Source: a virus. Taken from it: DNA of 20,436 bases. Where the stretch lies: positions 1 to 20,436 of the IMG/VR virus record IMGVR_UViG_3300009550_000076. One strand, given 5' to 3'. The notes below the pieces were generated by a model. It had not been told where the DNA came from and did no database searches. It was given only the letters and a program-made list of their open reading frames with translations. Positions 1,597-11,363 of the stretch are shown here, piece by piece (positions within the stretch are counted from its first letter, which is position 1; every line of letters begins with the position of its first letter). A program made the translations under genes and the position numbers.

Positions 1597-3480
1597 ATGG
1601 AAAACACAGTTAACGAAGGACAAACTCAAGTTTATGCCGATGGGGCAATCGATGCTCAACCTGGTGTAAATACTAATGCCCTTTACCTCAATAACCCTAA
1701 GCAACAATTATTGGATATAATTCACGTATTGTTTAGCCAAAGTGGTAGAATGTCAGATATTGACAATGATGGTAAAATTGACCATAGTGGATCTATGACA
1801 GATCAACAGGTTATGACAATCTTAGTAGGAATGGGAATTCCGCAACAGATGGCGATGAGTGGTATTGCTAAATATCGTGAAATGCATAAAGATCAATCAA
1901 ATATATACACTGAAAATAATAATCAAAAAAATCATAACAAAATGAAATTTACATTAACAGACCTATACGAAAACGTTATGGATAGCATTAATGGATTAAA
2001 GGCAATGGATAATGATAATTCCAGAGTTTCGTATTCTGTTAAGGAATCTTTAACTATTTTGGAAGAAGCATTAACTGCATTCCCAATGAAATTAAAAAAT
2101 GCAGATCTTTCTGCAATAAGTGAAGAATTAGAAAACTCGGTTAGCCCAGATCTTAAATTCAGTATTGCAAGAAATCTATATTCTAAATTAGCTCAGTCAA
2201 CCTGGTTAAATCCAGTTTCTGAATTAAGAAATTATATAATGGAATCATACAACAATTCTAAATGGCATTTTAGAATTAGCGAATCTATTGCAAGAACATC
2301 AGACCAAAAAGGAAAATTAATGGAATCATTTAATGCTGATTTAGTTTCTTTGTTAAATGAATCAGATGTAAAATCTAAATTTTCTGTGGTTGCTGCAAAA
2401 CACCCATGGTCAATGGATGCTAAGGCAATCATAAATGAAATGAATGCTGAAGATAAGAAAGTTGCATCTACTGCAAACGGTAAAGTTGTATCTGTTCTTT
2501 CTCCAGTATTAGAATCTGAAGAAGGTTTAACATTCCACTTACATGGAAAGAATTATACTTATAATGGTAAAGACATTACTGAAGCTAATGTAACTGATCC
2601 AAGATTCTTTGATATTACTGAAGGATTAAATATGTTCTCAAGAAATGGAAACATTCTTTCATTACATGGAGAAAATGGTAAATCATTAGAATACAATATT
2701 GCTGAAGGTACTTTAACAATGGGTAAAGTTGATATGAGTAATTACAGTATCATTGAATTAAAAGAAGCTTTATTAGCAACTAATTTCTCTGGTTACAGAA
2801 ATCAATGGCAAAATGATAAAATTTGTAAATTCTTTGAATCGGTTGATTTAATTGCAGAGATGGATAATTTTACAACTATTCAAAATCAAGAATTCTTAGA
2901 TGTATTTTTAACAATGATTGGAGTGAATGAAGGAATTTATATTAATAAAGTAAATCCTGGAATGAAACTAAATGAAATGTCAAAAATTGATACTGCTTCT
3001 GAAACTGTAGAAATAGTAAAAGAATTTATTAACTTTGATGTTTCTCCAATTCTTTCTGAAAGATTAATTGCTGAAGATAATGAAAAAGCAATTGAGGAAA
3101 ACAAAAGAAAAGATCTTACTGATGCAATTTCTTTCCTAGAAGAAAAGAAATCTGAGGTTGAGGCTGCTATTAAAAAGTTAGGTGAAACTGAAGAATTAAC
3201 TGAAGCTCTAAATTTAATAGCTGAAGAATTAAAAGGAAAAGAAAAAGAATTAGCTGATTCATATATTTCTGAAAAAAAAACTAAAGACGACTATTTAAAT
3301 GATGGTTTCGTAGAAGCATCAGTTAAAAAGAACGGACAAGGTTTAAAAAAGAGACAAGAAGTATTAGTTAATGCTGAAGAATATGCTTCTTTAGGTGATG
3401 ATGATTTATTAACAATCATTGTTCCTAAAAATGGTAAAAGTATCGTACTTCCTAAAGAAGATTTAGAAGTTAAGATTTAA
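1597..3480 (+). CDS. large phage protein of unknown function, probable virion component, with EF-hand-like loop and C-terminal coiled coil
   Basis: I do not recognise a family for this 627-residue protein. Residues 54-62, DIDNDGKID, look like the first nine positions of a calcium-binding EF-hand/dockerin loop (Asp at 1, 3, 5 and 9, Gly at 6), but position 12 is Gly rather than the usual acidic residue. Residues 1-115 form a separate segment ending in a low-complexity N/K/Q linker. A new, more regular region starts at Met116 (MKFTLTDLYENV). Residues about 310-385 are beta-rich (GLTFHLHGKNYTYNGKDI...). Residues about 490-560 are Glu/Lys-rich and probably coiled coil. The protein ends with a short beta-like segment (LLTIIVPKNGKSIVLP). 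It lies between a tail gene and a strong terminator and follows a candidate late promoter, which suggests a late, possibly structural product. There is no signal peptide or membrane segment. Confidence 0.75.
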   Translation: MENTVNEGQTQVYADGAIDAQPGVNTNALYLNNPKQQLLDIIHVLFSQSGRMSDIDNDGKIDHSGSMTDQQVMTILVGMGIPQQMAMSGIAKYREMHKDQSNIYTENNNQKNHNKMKFTLTDLYENVMDSINGLKAMDNDNSRVSYSVKESLTILEEALTAFPMKLKNADLSAISEELENSVSPDLKFSIARNLYSKLAQSTWLNPVSELRNYIMESYNNSKWHFRISESIARTSDQKGKLMESFNADLVSLLNESDVKSKFSVVAAKHPWSMDAKAIINEMNAEDKKVASTANGKVVSVLSPVLESEEGLTFHLHGKNYTYNGKDITEANVTDPRFFDITEGLNMFSRNGNILSLHGENGKSLEYNIAEGTLTMGKVDMSNYSIIELKEALLATNFSGYRNQWQNDKICKFFESVDLIAEMDNFTTIQNQEFLDVFLTMIGVNEGIYINKVNPGMKLNEMSKIDTASETVEIVKEFINFDVSPILSERLIAEDNEKAIEENKRKDLTDAISFLEEKKSEVEAAIKKLGETEELTEALNLIAEELKGKEKELADSYISEKKTKDDYLNDGFVEASVKKNGQGLKKRQEVLVNAEEYASLGDDDLLTIIVPKNGKSIVLPKEDLEVKI

Positions 3481-5026: not shown

Positions 5027-6673
5027 ATGGCAGGTTTTACAGATAGAAGAGGTCCTTTAAGTACTGGGAATCCAGTAAGAAGGCTTCTAAAAGATCTTTC
5101 TAATTTAGGAATGGCATATGATGATATGATCATTCGTAATTCACGTGCAGTAGGTTTTACTGAAAATCAAATGGGTTATTCATTTAATCCAATGGGATCT
5201 GATAGTGATGATATGTATGGAGCATTTGCTGCACTTTCATTAACTGATACCAATATGAAGAAAAATATTTCTTTCTTCGATACGGATTATATTAGAAAAA
5301 GAGATCAACTTAGAACATTTGCAGTACAAGATGAAATAGAAGATATCTTAGATGTATTAACAGATGAAGCAATTGTTTTTGATGAATCTAATTATATGGC
5401 TTATGCTGAATTTAATGGTCATATTGGTGAATCAATAGAAGAAGAGATTGCAGATGTATATAATAATATCTACAATTACTTTGGGTTTAATGATTCAGTA
5501 GCACCGTGGAATTATTTTAGAAAATGGTTAATTGATGGTTATCTTGCTTTTGAAATTGTTTATAATGATAAACAAACAGAGATTATAGGATTTAAAGAAT
5601 TAGATCCTGTATCATTAATGCCAGGTATTGATACCGATGATGGTAAAAAAGTTTGGATCCAATATAAAGGTGAAGGTGCAAAAGAAAGGACATTATGGGA
5701 TTCTCAAATAATTTATATTTCATATTCTTCAATTAATTCTCCAATGAGAATATCTTATGTTGAAAGATTAATAAGATCTTTTAACCTTTTAAGAATCATG
5801 GAACATAGTAGAATTATCTGGGCTGTATCTAATGCTTCATTCAAAACCCAATTTACAATCCCAGTTGGTGGTAAATCAAAAACCAGAGCAAAACAATCAT
5901 TAGCTACTTTAATGAACTCATATCGTGAGGTTGTAGACTTTAACTTTGAGAGTGGTGAAATTCAAACCAATGGTAAACCAATGATGCCGTTTAACAAGGA
6001 GTATTGGTTACCTTCTAAAGATGGTGAATCACCAGAGATTACTACATTAGGTGGTGATGGACCAGATCTAGGAGATACTGAATCTTTAAAATACTTTTCA
6101 GATAAATTACAACTAGCTTCTAAGATTCCATTTTCTAGATTTGATAGGGAAGGTGGTAATACTTATGATATGGAGGCAAGCGGTATGTTAAGAGATGAAA
6201 TTAAATTTGGTAGATTTATTTCAAGATTAAGATCAATATGGCAAGAAATATTAGTTAAGCCTGTATATCTTCAAATGTGTCTTAATCATCCTGAATTAAA
6301 AAATGATATTGCATTTAAAGCAGGATTAGGATTAAACTTTATGAAAGATAATGTTTTTGAAGAAATGAAAGAAATGGAACTCCAAACAAAACGTGTAGAT
6401 TTTATTGGTAATCTAAAAACACAATTAAGTACAATGACTGCTGAAATGGAGGAAATACCATATTTTGATTTAGGATTCTTAATTAAGAGATATGGTGGAT
6501 TTACACGTGATGATATTAAAGCAAATGCCCGAGCTAAAGAACGTACTGAGTTAGAAGCAGAAGGGTATTCGCAAGAAGATATAGAAAAGATTCTTTTAGG
6601 TGCAAACAAGAAGGATTTTAAACCTGAAGAGAAATCTGATGGGATGGATGAAGACCCATTGGCCGGAATCTAA
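5027..6673 (+). CDS. 20: portal vertex protein gp20
   Basis: The 548-residue protein is a T4-type portal, the dodecameric ring at the head vertex through which DNA is packaged and ejected. T4 gp20 has 524 residues. Supporting stretches are AVQDEIEDILDVLTDEAIVFDE (residues about 99-120), RKWLIDGYLAFEIVYND, IIGFKELDPVSLMPGI, the clip/stem region MEHSRIIWAVSNASFKTQFTIPVG, and LQLASKIPFSRFDREGGNTYDMEASGMLRDEIKFGRFI. The N-terminus is Gly/Arg/Pro-rich and probably flexible. The C-terminus is acidic and ends DEDPLAGI. Downstream come the protease/scaffold and capsid genes in the T4 order 20-21-22-23. The start at 5027 follows an A-rich leader with no Shine-Dalgarno. Confidence 0.95.
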   Translation: MAGFTDRRGPLSTGNPVRRLLKDLSNLGMAYDDMIIRNSRAVGFTENQMGYSFNPMGSDSDDMYGAFAALSLTDTNMKKNISFFDTDYIRKRDQLRTFAVQDEIEDILDVLTDEAIVFDESNYMAYAEFNGHIGESIEEEIADVYNNIYNYFGFNDSVAPWNYFRKWLIDGYLAFEIVYNDKQTEIIGFKELDPVSLMPGIDTDDGKKVWIQYKGEGAKERTLWDSQIIYISYSSINSPMRISYVERLIRSFNLLRIMEHSRIIWAVSNASFKTQFTIPVGGKSKTRAKQSLATLMNSYREVVDFNFESGEIQTNGKPMMPFNKEYWLPSKDGESPEITTLGGDGPDLGDTESLKYFSDKLQLASKIPFSRFDREGGNTYDMEASGMLRDEIKFGRFISRLRSIWQEILVKPVYLQMCLNHPELKNDIAFKAGLGLNFMKDNVFEEMKEMELQTKRVDFIGNLKTQLSTMTAEMEEIPYFDLGFLIKRYGGFTRDDIKANARAKERTELEAEGYSQEDIEKILLGANKKDFKPEEKSDGMDEDPLAGI

Positions 6674-6717: not shown

Positions 6718-8427
6718 ATGTCTAATAAGAAACTTTTAATTCTAGAAAGATCTAAGTCTAATTTAAGTATGACTAAAGATGCCGATGGCTCTGTCGTACT
6801 TGAAGGTGTATTTACTGAGATTGGAGTAAAGAATAAAAATAACCGTATTTATGAAGAAGCTGAAGTACTTCCTCATATCAATGAATTAAAGGAAAAGGTA
6901 AAAACTAACAAACTGTTAGGCGAACTTGACCACCCAAAAGATTTTGATATTAGTCTATCAAATGTTTCTCACGTTATCGAGGATTTAGATTACGATAGTG
7001 ATAAGAAACAAGTTCTAGGAAGAATTAGATTATTAAATACTTCAAAAGGTAAAGAAGCTCAGGCATTAATAGAGGATGGTATTCCATTACATATTTCAAG
7101 TAGAGCAGCTGGAACAGTTGATGAGTCTGGGAAAGTTAAAATTAAAAAATTCTTTACATACGATTTAGTTGCTGATCCTGGATTTGAAAATGCAGAATTG
7201 GCCAGAGTTAATGAATCATTCGGTTTTGAAAATACTGAAGGTTTATACATTTATGAAATGGGTAACTCTGAAGATGAAATAAATAAAACAAATAAAACAG
7301 ATCTAACAATGGAAAATACATCAGACAAATTTGTAACTGTTGAGGATTTTAATAAGTACACTGAATATGTAAAGAATACATTGGATAGTGTTAAAGAATC
7401 TGCAAATTCAAATAACGATGAGTTAATTGAAAAGCTAGTTAAATATACTGAGCATATTGCAGAGAAGGTAAATCAGGTTACTGATTATACTGAATACTTA
7501 TCCGAAAATCTTGACAAGAGCATATCTCACTCTGACTACTTAGCAGAGAATATCGATAAAATTAAAAATTATGCTTCTTACTTAGGTGAAGAATTAGATA
7601 ATTCAATTCAATACACTGAGCATGTTGCTGAACAAGCAGATAAAGGAATTGCATATTCTAATTATTTAGGTGAAAGCTTAGATAAAGGAATTAAATATTC
7701 TGAATACATCGCAGAAAAGGTTGATCAAAATATTGCTTATTCTGAATACCTTGGAGAAAATGTAGACAAGAGTATTAAATATTCTGAATACATTGCAGAA
7801 AATGTAGCTGCTGTAGATGCGGAAGCAATTAATGAGTCAACTGAAGAAACTAAAGATGAAGTAATTACTGAGTCTGTAGAAGTAAAAGAAGAAACAAAAT
7901 CTTATAAAGAATCTATTAGTGAAAAATTAGAAAGTTTAATTTCTAAGGCTGAAGCTAAAAATGTTTCTGAAATGCACTTTATGAATTTCTTATCAGAATC
8001 TAAAAAGAATGAATTTGATTCTTTATCTGAAGACAAGAAAAGTTTAATAGTTGAATCAATGAATTCTGATTCTATTATGTCAACTGTACAAGCTGAAAAC
8101 GTTTGGGACTCTTGTTTTGTAACTGAAAGAAAGGCAATTAACTTTATTGATGATATGCCAGAGAAATATGCTGACAAATGGAATTCTCTTTCAGAAAATA
8201 GAAAAGAACAAATTATTGCTGAATCTAAATTCCACTCTTTAGGTACTCCTTATGCTATTAATAACTTTTGGCAAACAAGAGATCTTAGAGATACTCAAAT
8301 GAATTTAGAAGCAATTAATGAAAGTAAAACTGCTGCTGAGGCTGCTCAAGAAAAGAAGGAGCCATTATTAAATGAAGCATACCAAGCAGATTTAATTCAA
8401 AAAATGAAATTCAGATTAAATAGATAA
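6718..8427 (+). CDS. 21: prohead maturation protease (gp21-like) fused to a scaffold (gp22-like) domain with tandem repeats
   Basis: Residues 1 to about 165 are a T4 gp21-type prohead serine protease. GELDHP (68-73) supplies the catalytic His72, HISSRAAG (125-132) supplies the Ser127/Ser128 site, and FTYDLVADPGFENAEL (146-161) is the family's closing motif. After a polar linker (about 181-197), residues 198-569 form an acidic, helical, scaffold-like region with no enzyme motifs. It contains nine perfect 14-residue tandem repeats (243-368, consensus YSEYLGENVDKSIK). It ends in a basic tail, KMKFRLNR, preceded by LLNE-A, a gp21-like cut site. In T4 the scaffold gp22 is a separate gene between 21 and 23; here no such gene exists and the gap to gp23 is 108 bases. 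A fusion is therefore the simplest reading. An internal ATG at 7309 could also yield free scaffold. The start follows AGAAAG with weak ribosome-site character. Confidence 0.92.
   Translation: MSNKKLLILERSKSNLSMTKDADGSVVLEGVFTEIGVKNKNNRIYEEAEVLPHINELKEKVKTNKLLGELDHPKDFDISLSNVSHVIEDLDYDSDKKQVLGRIRLLNTSKGKEAQALIEDGIPLHISSRAAGTVDESGKVKIKKFFTYDLVADPGFENAELARVNESFGFENTEGLYIYEMGNSEDEINKTNKTDLTMENTSDKFVTVEDFNKYTEYVKNTLDSVKESANSNNDELIEKLVKYTEHIAEKVNQVTDYTEYLSENLDKSISHSDYLAENIDKIKNYASYLGEELDNSIQYTEHVAEQADKGIAYSNYLGESLDKGIKYSEYIAEKVDQNIAYSEYLGENVDKSIKYSEYIAENVAAVDAEAINESTEETKDEVITESVEVKEETKSYKESISEKLESLISKAEAKNVSEMHFMNFLSESKKNEFDSLSEDKKSLIVESMNSDSIMSTVQAENVWDSCFVTERKAINFIDDMPEKYADKWNSLSENRKEQIIAESKFHSLGTPYAINNFWQTRDLRDTQMNLEAINESKTAAEAAQEKKEPLLNEAYQADLIQKMKFRLNR
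7444..7821 (+). repeat. nine tandem 42-base repeats encoding 14-residue helical units in the scaffold
   Basis: The encoded units begin at residues 243, 257, 271, 285, 299, 313, 327, 341 and 355 with no length change. The consensus is Tyr-Ser/Thr-Glu-Tyr/His-Leu/Ile-Ala/Gly-Glu-x-Leu/Val-Asp-Lys-x-Ile-x. Fourteen residues equals two heptads, and the hydrophobic positions form one face of a helix. The DNA copies have diverged, so this is an old, selected protein repeat rather than fresh duplication. Confidence 0.9.
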
Positions 8428-8535: not shown

Positions 8536-10428
8536 ATGTACGCAAATCAATTAATCAACGAGGCTGAGGTTCAAAAGACTTGGGGTCCTGTTATTGAGGA
8601 AAGTACTGGAATTACTGAAAAGTCTAAGTTATCTTGGATGTCTAAGTACTGCCATTACCATAACCTTAATGAGGGTGTCTACAATACTGTACACCTTAAC
8701 CCGAACATGAATGTTCAAAGTATGGGTAACGTAACATTACCAGGAGATCCTGGATCAATGAACGCTTTCCCAGCACAAGCTACCGGATCTGGAGACAGAC
8801 CTTTTTCTTTGTTACCACTTGCAATGCAAGTAGCTGCACAGACTGTAGGTTTAGACTTAGTTCCTGTAGTACCAATGCAAGGCCCTATGGGAGTTTTAAC
8901 TTACCTAGACTTTGTATATGGTGGAGGTAGAGCATCAGGTGCACCTGTAAATGGTAACCTTGATACTATCGGTTCTCCATTATTAATCAAATTCAACGTA
9001 ACTAACGACGATGGAACTGATTTTATAGTAAATGATGTATTATATGCAGATAGATTAAACTCTATAGCAGGTACTTCTACTCCAGTTTTGGCAAACTCTT
9101 GTTTTGCTTCTTACGAATTAAGTTTTGTAGGTTTATCAAGAATAGATGGGTTTCCAATATTCAGAGTAAGAGGTAATACAACTGCTCAAAAAGCTGTAAC
9201 TGCTGGTGGTACTTTAGTTGCTCCATTAGGATTAACTAACAGTGGATCTAACTACGCACAAGGTGCTGAAACTGCTGCATCAACTATTTATGGTGCTATT
9301 GAAGACAATGCTAGACTATACGGATTAGCAAGAGTTGGTGGTGCTGTAAGAGCTGGTTCTGCTAGTACTGAAATGGGTGTTGGTGCAACTATTACAGTAA
9401 TGGCTACTGTTGCTGCTGCATCTGGTTTAAGTTTGGTAAAAGCTTTAGAAGACCATATTTCTGGTTTCTCTGGTAATGCTTTCCAACCAACTAATGACCC
9501 TGCAACTGGTATTCCTCCATTCTCTCCTAACAATATGAACGGTGTAGATCCTTACCAAAGAGGTGTAGGTGAATCAACTGTTGATAACGTTATGGGACTT
9601 AGCTTATTCAACAAGTCTGTAGCTGCTGAAACTTTCCAAGTTGCTGCTGCTGTGACTAGAGAACAAGTTCAAGATCTGAAGCAATTCGGAATTGATGCTG
9701 TTGCTCAAGTTGAAGCTGTATTGGTAAATGAGTTAACTCAATCTATCAATAAATACATCTTGGATAGAATCTTTAGAAACGGTGTAACTAACAACGGCCA
9801 AATTGCTGCTGTAAACGGTACACAGTTATCTCAACAGTTCGACCAGGGTGGTGCTGCTACTACTGCAATTGCATTAGGACCTAACAACACTTCGAATACT
9901 ATCCAAAATGCGGTAGGACTTGGTGCAAACCAAACTAACGTTCTTGGTGGTGGTAATGTACAAGGTACTTTACAGAGAAGAATCTATACTAAGATTCTTG
10001 CTGCAAGTAACTTAATTGCTACAAGAGGTAGAAGAGGACCAGCTACTTTCGCTGTAACAGGTGGAGAAATGGCTACTGCTCTTCAATCAGTTGCTGGATT
10101 CGTTGCATATCCGTTATCAAATACAGTTAATCAAGCTGGTGGATCTTTATATCCAATCGGTGCGATCGCTGGGGTAACAATTTATGTAGATCCAAACAGA
10201 GCCTTTAATGACTACACAATTGCTGTAGGAAGAAAAGGTGATGGTAACTCACCTGGTTTAGTATTCATGCCTTACTTAATGGCTGAATCAGTAGAAACAA
10301 TCGCAGAAGGAACTATGGCTCCTAAAATCGCGGTTAAATCTAGATTCGCTTTAGTAGATGCTGGATTCAATCCTGAATTAATGTATTACACAATGAACTT
10401 TACGTTCACTGGTTGTTCTATTATCTAA
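8536..10428 (+). CDS. 23: major capsid protein gp23
   Basis: The 630-residue protein is a T4-type major capsid protein forming the hexamers of the head shell. SLLPLAMQVAAQTVGLDLVPVVPMQGPMGVL (about residues 95-125) corresponds to T4 IPNLIAFDICGVQPMNSPTGQVF. AAVTREQVQDLKQFGIDAVAQVEAVLVNELTQSINKYIL and the TRGRRGPATFAVTG segment are also family hallmarks. It exceeds T4 gp23 (521 residues) by about 110, with extra Gly/Ala/Ser/Asn-rich sequence roughly in residues 130-330. The N-terminal delta region holds gp21-type cut sites: INE-A after Glu9 and LNE-G after Glu46; the latter probably gives the mature N-terminus. More codons end in C (AAC, TAC) than in neighbouring genes, consistent with very high expression. 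A strong terminator follows. Confidence 0.97.
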   Translation: MYANQLINEAEVQKTWGPVIEESTGITEKSKLSWMSKYCHYHNLNEGVYNTVHLNPNMNVQSMGNVTLPGDPGSMNAFPAQATGSGDRPFSLLPLAMQVAAQTVGLDLVPVVPMQGPMGVLTYLDFVYGGGRASGAPVNGNLDTIGSPLLIKFNVTNDDGTDFIVNDVLYADRLNSIAGTSTPVLANSCFASYELSFVGLSRIDGFPIFRVRGNTTAQKAVTAGGTLVAPLGLTNSGSNYAQGAETAASTIYGAIEDNARLYGLARVGGAVRAGSASTEMGVGATITVMATVAAASGLSLVKALEDHISGFSGNAFQPTNDPATGIPPFSPNNMNGVDPYQRGVGESTVDNVMGLSLFNKSVAAETFQVAAAVTREQVQDLKQFGIDAVAQVEAVLVNELTQSINKYILDRIFRNGVTNNGQIAAVNGTQLSQQFDQGGAATTAIALGPNNTSNTIQNAVGLGANQTNVLGGGNVQGTLQRRIYTKILAASNLIATRGRRGPATFAVTGGEMATALQSVAGFVAYPLSNTVNQAGGSLYPIGAIAGVTIYVDPNRAFNDYTIAVGRKGDGNSPGLVFMPYLMAESVETIAEGTMAPKIAVKSRFALVDAGFNPELMYYTMNFTFTGCSII

Positions 10429-10526: not shown

Positions 10527-11363
10527 ATGGGAAAATTAAAAACATATGATCAATTTGTTAATGAAGCATTAATAGATGCAATTAAGAATCCAATCAAATG
10601 GAAGAAGATCAAAAACAATGCTAAGAAATACCAAAAGGCTAAAGTAGCACAAGCTCTTAATGATGTAGATTTTGCAAAGAAAAAAGCAAAAGGAAAGGTT
10701 AGTATGACTGCTAAACAAAAAGAAGTTTTGACTCAAGCAAATAAAGCTAAGAATTCTGCACTTAAAGATCAAGCCGATGCTATTACACAAAGAATGAATG
10801 ATTTAGCAACAACTGATGGTTTAAAAAAGGTTGCTGCATTGGCAAGAACTAAATCTAATCTTGCTGCTAATAAGATAGTACTTAAGGCTGCTGATGGTGA
10901 AGAAGCTAAACAATTAAAAATTAAACAAACTGCATTATCTAAAAAAGCTGCTGAACAAGGTAAAGCTTTAGCTGATTATGAAGATACCTCATCTGATTCT
11001 AAAGATGATAATGAAGGAGAAGCATCAGCAAAATTAGAAAAAGGTATTAAGGACTTTCAATCTAATATGGATGCTGCTCAAGAAACTAAGAAAAAAGCTA
11101 AAGAAGCTTTGGTTAAATTAGGAGATAAGAAAAAAGAACAAGAAAAGAAAGGTACTGGTGGTGAAGACGGTGAAAAGGCAATGGATAAAATTAATAAGGA
11201 AATCACTAAACAAGAAAGATTAGTAACTGGTGCTGATGAAGATTATGCTGAACTTAAAAAGAAAAGAGATGGCTTAAAAGATAAGTTAGCTAATTTAACT
11301 AGTGAATCTTTTGAATATGTAGCAGAATCTGTTGCTCAGAAATTTGCAAGATTAAGAAAATAA
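10527..11363 (+). CDS. lysine-rich head internal-protein-like protein with capsid-targeting N-terminus
   Basis: The 278-residue, lysine- and alanine-rich protein looks almost entirely helical. Its N-terminus LKTYDQFVNEA resembles the capsid-targeting sequence MKTYQEFIAEA of T4 internal proteins IPI-IPIII. That sequence sends them into the prohead and is removed by gp21 after the Glu. Here the equivalent cut would follow Glu13. Near the C-terminus a second such motif, SFEYVAES (cut after about Glu267), precedes a basic tail, SVAQKFARLRK. The middle is Lys/Glu coiled coil without catalytic motifs. It follows the capsid gene after a terminator. I infer a protein packaged with, or involved in forming, the prohead core, perhaps ejected with DNA. 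A scaffold-accessory role is the main alternative. Confidence 0.75.
   Translation: MGKLKTYDQFVNEALIDAIKNPIKWKKIKNNAKKYQKAKVAQALNDVDFAKKKAKGKVSMTAKQKEVLTQANKAKNSALKDQADAITQRMNDLATTDGLKKVAALARTKSNLAANKIVLKAADGEEAKQLKIKQTALSKKAAEQGKALADYEDTSSDSKDDNEGEASAKLEKGIKDFQSNMDAAQETKKKAKEALVKLGDKKKEQEKKGTGGEDGEKAMDKINKEITKQERLVTGADEDYAELKKKRDGLKDKLANLTSESFEYVAESVAQKFARLRK

Follow-up and report, generated by a model that had tools for sequence, protein, structure and literature searches.

The window analysed here, the whole 20,436-nucleotide stretch of virus record IMGVR_UViG_3300009550_000076, carries a gene in which a prohead protease of the T4 gp21 type is fused to a scaffold containing nine tandem repeats of 14 residues, each with a [LIV]-x-Glu motif. 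On balance it seems somewhat probable that the scaffold forms a helical rod of the prohead core, that its repeats serve as redundant sites of the fused protease, and that the same gene also supplies a scaffold-only product.

The gene is flanked on one side by a T4-type portal gene (5027-6673) and on the other by the gene for a Gp23-type major capsid protein (MCP; 8536-10428). It comprises the following parts.

6718..8427, + strand: fused prohead protease-scaffold ORF of 569 aa (Pfam and PHROG matches, gene neighbourhood).
6718..7206, + strand: protease domain with the T4 gp21 fold, residues 1-163 (Foldseek; invariant His/Ser/Asp columns).

The ORF matches Peptidase_S77 (PF03420) with an E-value of 4.5e-14 and 52.8 bits, the curated cut-off being 27; the weaker Pfam match is S80 (E 8e-08). 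Residues 7-465 match PHROG 207, head maturation protease (E 3.6e-39). The best Foldseek matches of the protease domain are three chains of 5jbl (T4 gp21; E 1.1e-9 to 1.7e-9), the sole PDB fold matches with E below 0.001, and the weak ones include herpes proteases 4v07 and 1o6e (E 0.02-0.04). By a profile score above the cut-off and by fold, the fused protease is of the T4 gp21 type, family S77, and a preliminary description that had placed a fused T4-type prohead protease beside the repeats was correct. His72, Ser127/Ser128 and Asp153 are invariant columns in an alignment of 27 protease sequences, and from family membership we infer that they are the catalytic residues. Beyond the approximately 163 N-terminal residues, the remainder of the ORF is scaffold. 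Neither Pfam nor PHROGs reported the gp22 family for this ORF, and the likeness to gp22 proposed here is one of role only.

Two regions of the scaffold bear the repeat.

7444..7821, + strand: array of nine repeats, each 14 residues with [LIV]-[AGS]-Glu; predicted long helix (translation, AlphaFold2).
7354..7395, + strand: isolated degenerate copy that lacks Glu, KYTEYVKNTLDSVK (found when position 8 is masked in the profile).

The array occupies residues 243-368 in nine contiguous units of exactly 14 residues. The preliminary description had reported Leu/Ile-x-Glu in eight copies and Val-Ala-Glu in one, followed mostly by Asn, Lys, Gln or Glu and not by Ala/Gly, and both readings are exact: positions 5-7 in that register are, in order, IAE, LSE, LAE, LGE, VAE, LGE, IAE, LGE and IAE, followed respectively by K, N, N, E, Q, S, K, N and N. 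In the numbering used below, which is that register plus one, Tyr is at position 2, Leu/Ile/Val at 6 and Glu at 8. The isolated upstream copy retains the Tyr/hydrophobic pattern despite its loss of Glu. P2 is Ala/Gly/Ser in the array and Asn at most of the putative single sites described below. Leu/Ile-x-Glu appears in only one of the 14 registers of the array (8 copies), the expectation from array composition being about 2% of positions. As the copies are homologous, however, nine matches are not nine independent events. Shuffling of the array gave a z of 3.8 for [LIV]xE and 7.1 for the reversed control Ex[LIV], which is high because a second Glu stands two residues before the hydrophobic residue. 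The motif count alone is little proof, and it is the evolutionary tests that carry weight. Searched against PDB sequences, the array matched nothing of significance, the best score (E 0.025) being to a designed helical protein, and no account of such a 14-residue array was found in the open-licence literature (full-text search; titles and abstracts).

Modelled alone with AlphaFold2, residues 235-372 form a single 130-residue helix spanning residues 2-131 of 138 in the best model (pLDDT 82.8), but the remaining four of the five models have a pLDDT of 35.8-60.2. In the full-ORF model the array is mostly below 50, with two helices at 234-292 and 300-365. The predicted array helix would measure some 20 nm, taking 0.15 nm per residue.

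To collect relatives, IMG/VR was scanned with the proteins of the window, LR756500 and LR745206, which yielded 80, 22 and 80 loci; named megaphages of 462-735 kb were added from a phage collection. The 183 full-length relatives (>450 aa; those shortened by an end-cut excluded) give 40 lineages, with representatives at 85% identity, which divide into a window clade (8 lineages), a divergent clade (7) and a megaphage clade (25). Position 8 was masked in the profile used to detect repeats, which kept Glu from favouring its own detection, and for lineage L089 only the five copies of the main run were counted and the rest omitted. The silent-change figures given below are parsimony estimates; repeat copies and lineages are related, and Fisher values are thus not strict probabilities. 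The main run comprises 9-11 copies among window-clade relatives and 12-15 among those of the megaphage clade, and an extra repeat unit is visible in one relative (L052, 806-2737). The notion that the scaffold acts as a ruler that sets capsid or genome size was dropped: main-array copies, counted by script, number 10, 14, 12 and 15 in genomes of 462, 635, 636 and 735 kb, a relation that is not monotonic (n=4), and the corresponding protein of a 540-kb Lak phage is without such an array.

The preliminary description had proposed to check whether the motif is conserved in relatives while the rest of the repeat drifts. For the Glu, this is the pattern in two clades. In the 77 copies of the window clade, Tyr2 is found in 74, L/I/V/M at position 6 in 76 and Glu8 in 75; in the 339 of the megaphage clade, Tyr2 in 301 (326 including His/Phe), L/I/V at position 6 in all and Glu8 in 321. 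The Tyr is nevertheless kept equally well, and in the 61 copies of the divergent clade Tyr/His2 is present in 58 and L/I/V at position 6 in 61, but Glu8 in 41 and Leu/Ile-x-Glu in just 27. A repeat that keeps its hydrophobic face and not its Glu, named there as the contrary outcome, is thus found in a third of the divergent-clade copies (20/61 without Glu), and the outcome differs between clades. Codon changes give a similar picture. In the window clade (59 sequences, nine copies) the amino-acid/silent counts are 0/38 for Glu8, 0/51 for Tyr5 and 29/50 for position 1; Tyr2 and Glu4 have five amino-acid changes each. The megaphage clade (65 sequences) has 13/166 for Glu8, 3/160 for Tyr2 and 87/147 for position 1. 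In the divergent clade (13 sequences) the counts are 13/20 for Glu8 and 3/22 for Tyr2, and Glu8 is no better protected than most positions. Positions 1 and 8 share the same helix angle (159 degrees from the hydrophobic centre), on the most exposed side. By these counts Glu8 is protected in the window and megaphage clades far beyond the demand of its helix place, yet Tyr is equally so.

This equal conservation points to a conserved Tyr/Glu binding face, a serious rival to cutting. According to this explanation, which we consider possible but rather improbable, Glu8 is structural: with Tyr2, Glu4 and Tyr5 it would form a helix face packing on core helices, capsid protein or portal, only the flanking [LIV]NE/[SAG] sites (the slash marks the cut) would be cleaved, and the rod would leave as a large piece or stay. 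The four residues do form a continuous strip (Tyr2 at -98, Tyr5 at -150, Glu8 at 159 and Glu4 at 108 degrees), on which Tyr5 and Glu8 are the two that never change in the window clade. Moreover, Glu8 is invariant there whichever residue follows, including K, E and Q, and the divergent clade retains Tyr2 while a third of its copies are without Glu. The same loss can be turned against a structural role, since it separates the Tyr/hydrophobic pattern from the Glu and so makes the latter dispensable for the fold. Glu4 also drifts to Asp and Glu8 does not: E:D ratios at position 8 are 75:0, 41:2 and 321:4 in the window, divergent and megaphage clades, against 50:9, 22:14 and 242:52 at position 4. 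Among distinct 14-mers of the divergent clade, A/G/S/N follows position 8 in 6/17 that lack Glu and in 34/41 that bear it; that Glu and the small residue or Asn are lost together fits the decay of whole sites, although shared ancestry inflates the contrast. The window clade, with only two copies lacking Glu, displays no such contrast. A salt bridge between Glu8 and Lys12 as the sole cause of Glu8 is weakened by the window and megaphage clades, in which 34/35 and 127/131 copies without K/R12 retain Glu8; the divergent clade behaves as a salt bridge predicts (24/42 copies without K/R12 and 17/19 with it).

T4 gp22 provides a yardstick in which the motif Glu is equally rigid in a protein that has no such repeat, which again argues against a purely structural Glu8. 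The gp21 motif is L/I-X-E and gp22 is cleaved to multiple fragments, as described in two papers (PMC9026906, PMC9958956). Amino-acid changes per Glu codon across 25 gp22 sequences number 0.10 for [LIV]xE[AGS] (10 codons), 1.60 for [LIV]xE with another P1' (10 codons) and 3.11 for the remaining Glu (27 codons); motif Glu that precedes Ala/Gly/Ser is thus some 30-fold less changeable than other Glu. Two gp22 sites that resemble the window repeats, KIAE/QA and WLAE/NK, have Glu in 25/25. Silent changes are also few at the protected codons (5 in 10 codons), so that amino-acid counts per codon are the better measure there. The same classes can be separated outside the array of the window clade, where Glu changes 0.20 times per codon in [LIV]xE[AGSN] (10 codons), 3.86 times with other P1' residues (7 codons) and 7.00 times elsewhere (24 codons). 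Given the rigidity of those ten outside codons, cutting would not be confined to the array. The megaphage clade is less clear outside the array (5.00 and 5.75 for motif Glu and 12.09 elsewhere), its array Glu changing 0.15 times. For the divergent clade, the mean is 0.67 changes at the six Glu that the array of the reference contains and 2.71 at Glu elsewhere.

Of 13 scaffolds or parts of scaffolds of the T4 type, 12 also have more [LIV]xE than shuffled sequences (z 2.9-6.4; the exception, PAU, has 0.7). For the reversed control, Ex[LIV], most of them lie close to the chance level, but the repeat-bearing ones are high (window 6.4, LR745206 5.4); the whole window scaffold has a z of 5.6 for [LIV]xE. 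Values for other proteins of the window are -1.8 (portal), 1.9 (MCP), 2.0 (gp15-like) and -0.8 to 1.4 (seven others); the window protease domain itself has 3.3. This count supports a family-wide rule and is not specific for the window array. Three further proteins are worth recording in this context. A 627-aa ORF at 1597-3480, which has no Pfam or PHROG match, contains 30 [LIV]xE (z 5.4) and an N-terminus reading MENTVNE/GQ; judging from these motifs, it is probably a further component of the prohead core and a substrate of the same protease. The 1207-aa fusion of Chryseobacterium phage MA9V-2 (L192:3411-7034) has 16 [LIV]NE in its scaffold where 1.5 are expected (z 12.3), an excess that suggests a preference for Asn at P2 in this protease lineage. 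The scaffold of Agrobacterium phage OLIVR5 (L197:4088-5578) has repeated VDEND/VDESD in an acidic region, another V-x-E pattern.

Candidate cleavage sites outside the array were found at the ends of the scaffold, in the MCP and in a further head protein.

7207..7218, + strand: candidate release site VNE/S at the protease/scaffold junction, residues 164-167 (E166 in 59/59 window-clade sequences, 0 changes).
8314..8325, + strand: candidate C-terminal cleavage site INE/S, residues 533-536 (E535 in 59/59 window-clade sequences, 0 changes).
8368..8379, + strand: candidate C-terminal cleavage site LNE/A, residues 551-554 (E553 in 59/59 window-clade sequences, 0 changes).
8662..8676, + strand: putative MCP maturation site NLNE/G, residues 43-47 ([LIM]xE in 39/40 lineages).
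10527..11363, + strand: probable internal head protein, 278 aa, with the CTS-like N-terminal sequence KTYDQFVNE/A (N-termini of homologues).

At the release-site position, [LIV]NE is found in 39/40 lineages by pattern, and the 40th (L083, LNES) was seen in the alignment. The two C-terminal candidates lie 34 (INE535/S) and 16 (LNE553/A) residues from the end of the ORF. The putative MCP site is LNE/S or LNE/G in the window clade, LYE/N, LNE/N or LNE/S in the divergent clade and [IM][NH]E/N in the megaphage clade; P1' is Asn in 30 of the 39 lineages scored, the site not having been found in L169. In a MAFFT alignment the MCP site falls opposite a gap and not in the column of T4 gp23 Glu65, and homology of the two sites is unsupported. 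Of the 47 homologues of ORF 10527-11363, all 25 distinct N-termini contain [VIL][NA]E and are of the type KTYDQF[VIL][NA]E/[AGKSN]; similarly, T4 IpI begins MKTFKEF and carries ITE/A. Within the window clade this N-terminus is conserved, and identity elsewhere in the protein varies widely among relatives.

That the window protease may cut after L/I-x-Glu is indicated only indirectly, by the protected Glu and by the conservation of [LIV]xE in the MCP, the CTS-like N-termini and the linker. Val at P3 seems to be acceptable to it. The preliminary description had regarded cutting efficiency as uncertain on account of the residues that follow the repeat Glu. For Asn this concern is removed, since the putative MCP site has Asn after the Glu in most lineages, in agreement with the CTS-like and gp22 sites; for Lys, Glu and Gln it stands. 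A scaffold of the window clade would have at least 19 candidate sites, nine in the array and ten outside it with A/G/S/N after Glu.

The idea of a built-in cutting array thus keeps part of its force. The protease type, the constraint on Glu8 in the window and megaphage clades and the parallel with gp22 support it, but the divergent clade loses the Glu, Tyr is as strictly kept, and there are sites elsewhere. We also count against cutting that Glu8 is invariant before K, E and Q when outside the array such Glu drifts, that a continuous helix, if formed as predicted, would have to be unwound by the protease, and that the reversed motif exceeds the forward one in the array and the protease domain is itself enriched. 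In its strongest form, in which every repeat is cut to give uniform 14-residue peptides that diffuse from the head, the idea appears quite unlikely. All nine window copies do have [LIV]xE, the Glu of which is never lost in 59 sequences, and their spacing is close to that of the motif in T4 gp22 (20 [LIV]xE in 269 aa, or 13.5 residues apart). However, P1' is K, E or Q in four of the nine, the class less protected outside the array, fewer than half of the divergent-clade copies read Leu/Ile-x-Glu, and published accounts of related systems tell of redundancy and incomplete cutting rather than of cleavage at every motif.

A second feature of the gene is a possible nested start in the linker between protease and scaffold.

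7309..7311, + strand: candidate internal start Met198 of a scaffold-only product of 372 aa ending at 8427 (conservation, context, third-base change).

The linker varies in length, and an equivalent of Met198 is present in 183/183 full-length relatives (179 by pattern, 4 by eye). Real gene starts of these phages have a Shine-Dalgarno-like motif in 0/75 cases and an A-run around -16 to -10; in Flavobacterium, initiation is reported to be promoted by A at -3, -6, -12 and -13 (PMC6847099). Start-like context precedes Met198 in 18 of the 27 lineages caught by pattern, out of 40, and 3/231 other internal Met; a later context scoring took 39 lineages, and since the two scorings use different backgrounds their scores are not interchangeable. 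The window's own Met198 scores only a middling -1.8, its nine real starts ranging from -4.6 to 5.6. Lys in the seven codons before Met198 is encoded by AAA 48 times and by AAG never, the ratio elsewhere being 1609:675. In the window clade, third-base change in these seven codons is 1.29 per codon against 5.51 overall, with 4/552 windows as low; the suppression is weaker in the divergent (11/566) and megaphage (50/690) clades. Together these data suggest a nested scaffold-only product from Met198. A nested start in T4-type fused proteases was not found described in the open-licence literature (full-text search; titles and abstracts). Other reports describe UL26.5 of herpesviruses as a scaffold-only product nested with UL26 (PMC12474303) and propose a nested scaffold-only product in Mu-like phages (PMC4378225).

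The favoured explanation, redundant cutting of a helical core rod, can be set out as follows. In a T4-type jumbo phage, one gene would combine a gp21-like protease with a gp22-like role, and the array would be a rod of the prohead core in which each two-heptad repeat has a double role, as a segment of the core-building long helix and as a P3-P1 site, [LIV]-x-Glu. The scaffold-only product from Met198 would probably supply the excess of scaffold over protease. At head maturation, the protease would free itself near VNE166/S and trim the C-terminal tail near INE535/S and LNE553/A; the rod would be digested at redundant sites, of which several lie within the array, and the pieces would leave ahead of DNA entry. 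The cuts within the array, their number and the use of the internal start are the steps that we infer.

The window gene can be regarded as the T4 gp21/gp22 core in a regularised and fused form. It shares with T4 (Straboviridae) an S77 protease of the same fold and the place between portal and Gp23 MCP, and with gp22 a scaffold rich in [LIV]xE whose Glu is strongly constrained and whose sites have a similar mean spacing. In T4, however, protease and scaffold are encoded by separate genes, gp22 has no tandem 14-residue array, and gp67 and gp68 are present. Closer in layout are the jumbo phages of Bacteroidota (Tenacibaculum phages PTm1 and pT24, Chryseobacterium phage MA9V-2 and the Lak phages), which have an N-terminal protease and the scaffold in the same ORF and share with the window many [LIV]xE, especially [LIV]NE. 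Their scaffolds differ from that of the window in the absence of the 14-residue repeat, and an internal Met like Met198 was not evident in the linkers of PTm1 and pT24, compared by eye only.

Two more distant systems offer parallels. Herpesvirus UL26/UL26.5, as described in PMC12474303, resembles the window gene in its fused protease-scaffold, with candidate release and near-C-terminal sites and a candidate in-frame start in the latter. The window gene differs in its tandem repeats, Glu-type sites and T4-type portal, and the likeness is one of layout and not of membership. The S80 proteases of phiKZ (gp175) and SPN3US (gp245) are Glu-specific prohead proteases with redundant propeptide sites and C-terminal autocleavage, according to three papers (PMC5694885, PMC10052503, PMC9026906); phiKZ propeptides in particular are stated to carry redundant cleavage sites (PMC9026906). 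What sets them apart from the window system is the SPN3US motif, A-x-E, and a protease to which no repeat scaffold is joined.

In a tentative and rather doubtful extension of this view, T4-type jumbo and megaphages with Bacteroidota-type starts would possess a herpes-like gene that provides both fusion and excess scaffold, with a rod of approximately 20 nm in which repeat and site are the same. Each 14-residue unit gained would then lengthen the rod and add cuts together.

More generally, the means by which giant capsids are cleared of a large scaffold may in this gene lie in the repeat itself, as unit of construction and site of cleavage at once. The strong protection of Glu in [LIV]xE[AGS(N)] in scaffolds also allows the cleavage maps of uncultured phages to be predicted from alignments. 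The predicted nested start would account for an excess of scaffold over protease from a fused gene, and would draw T4-type phages nearer to the herpesvirus layout.
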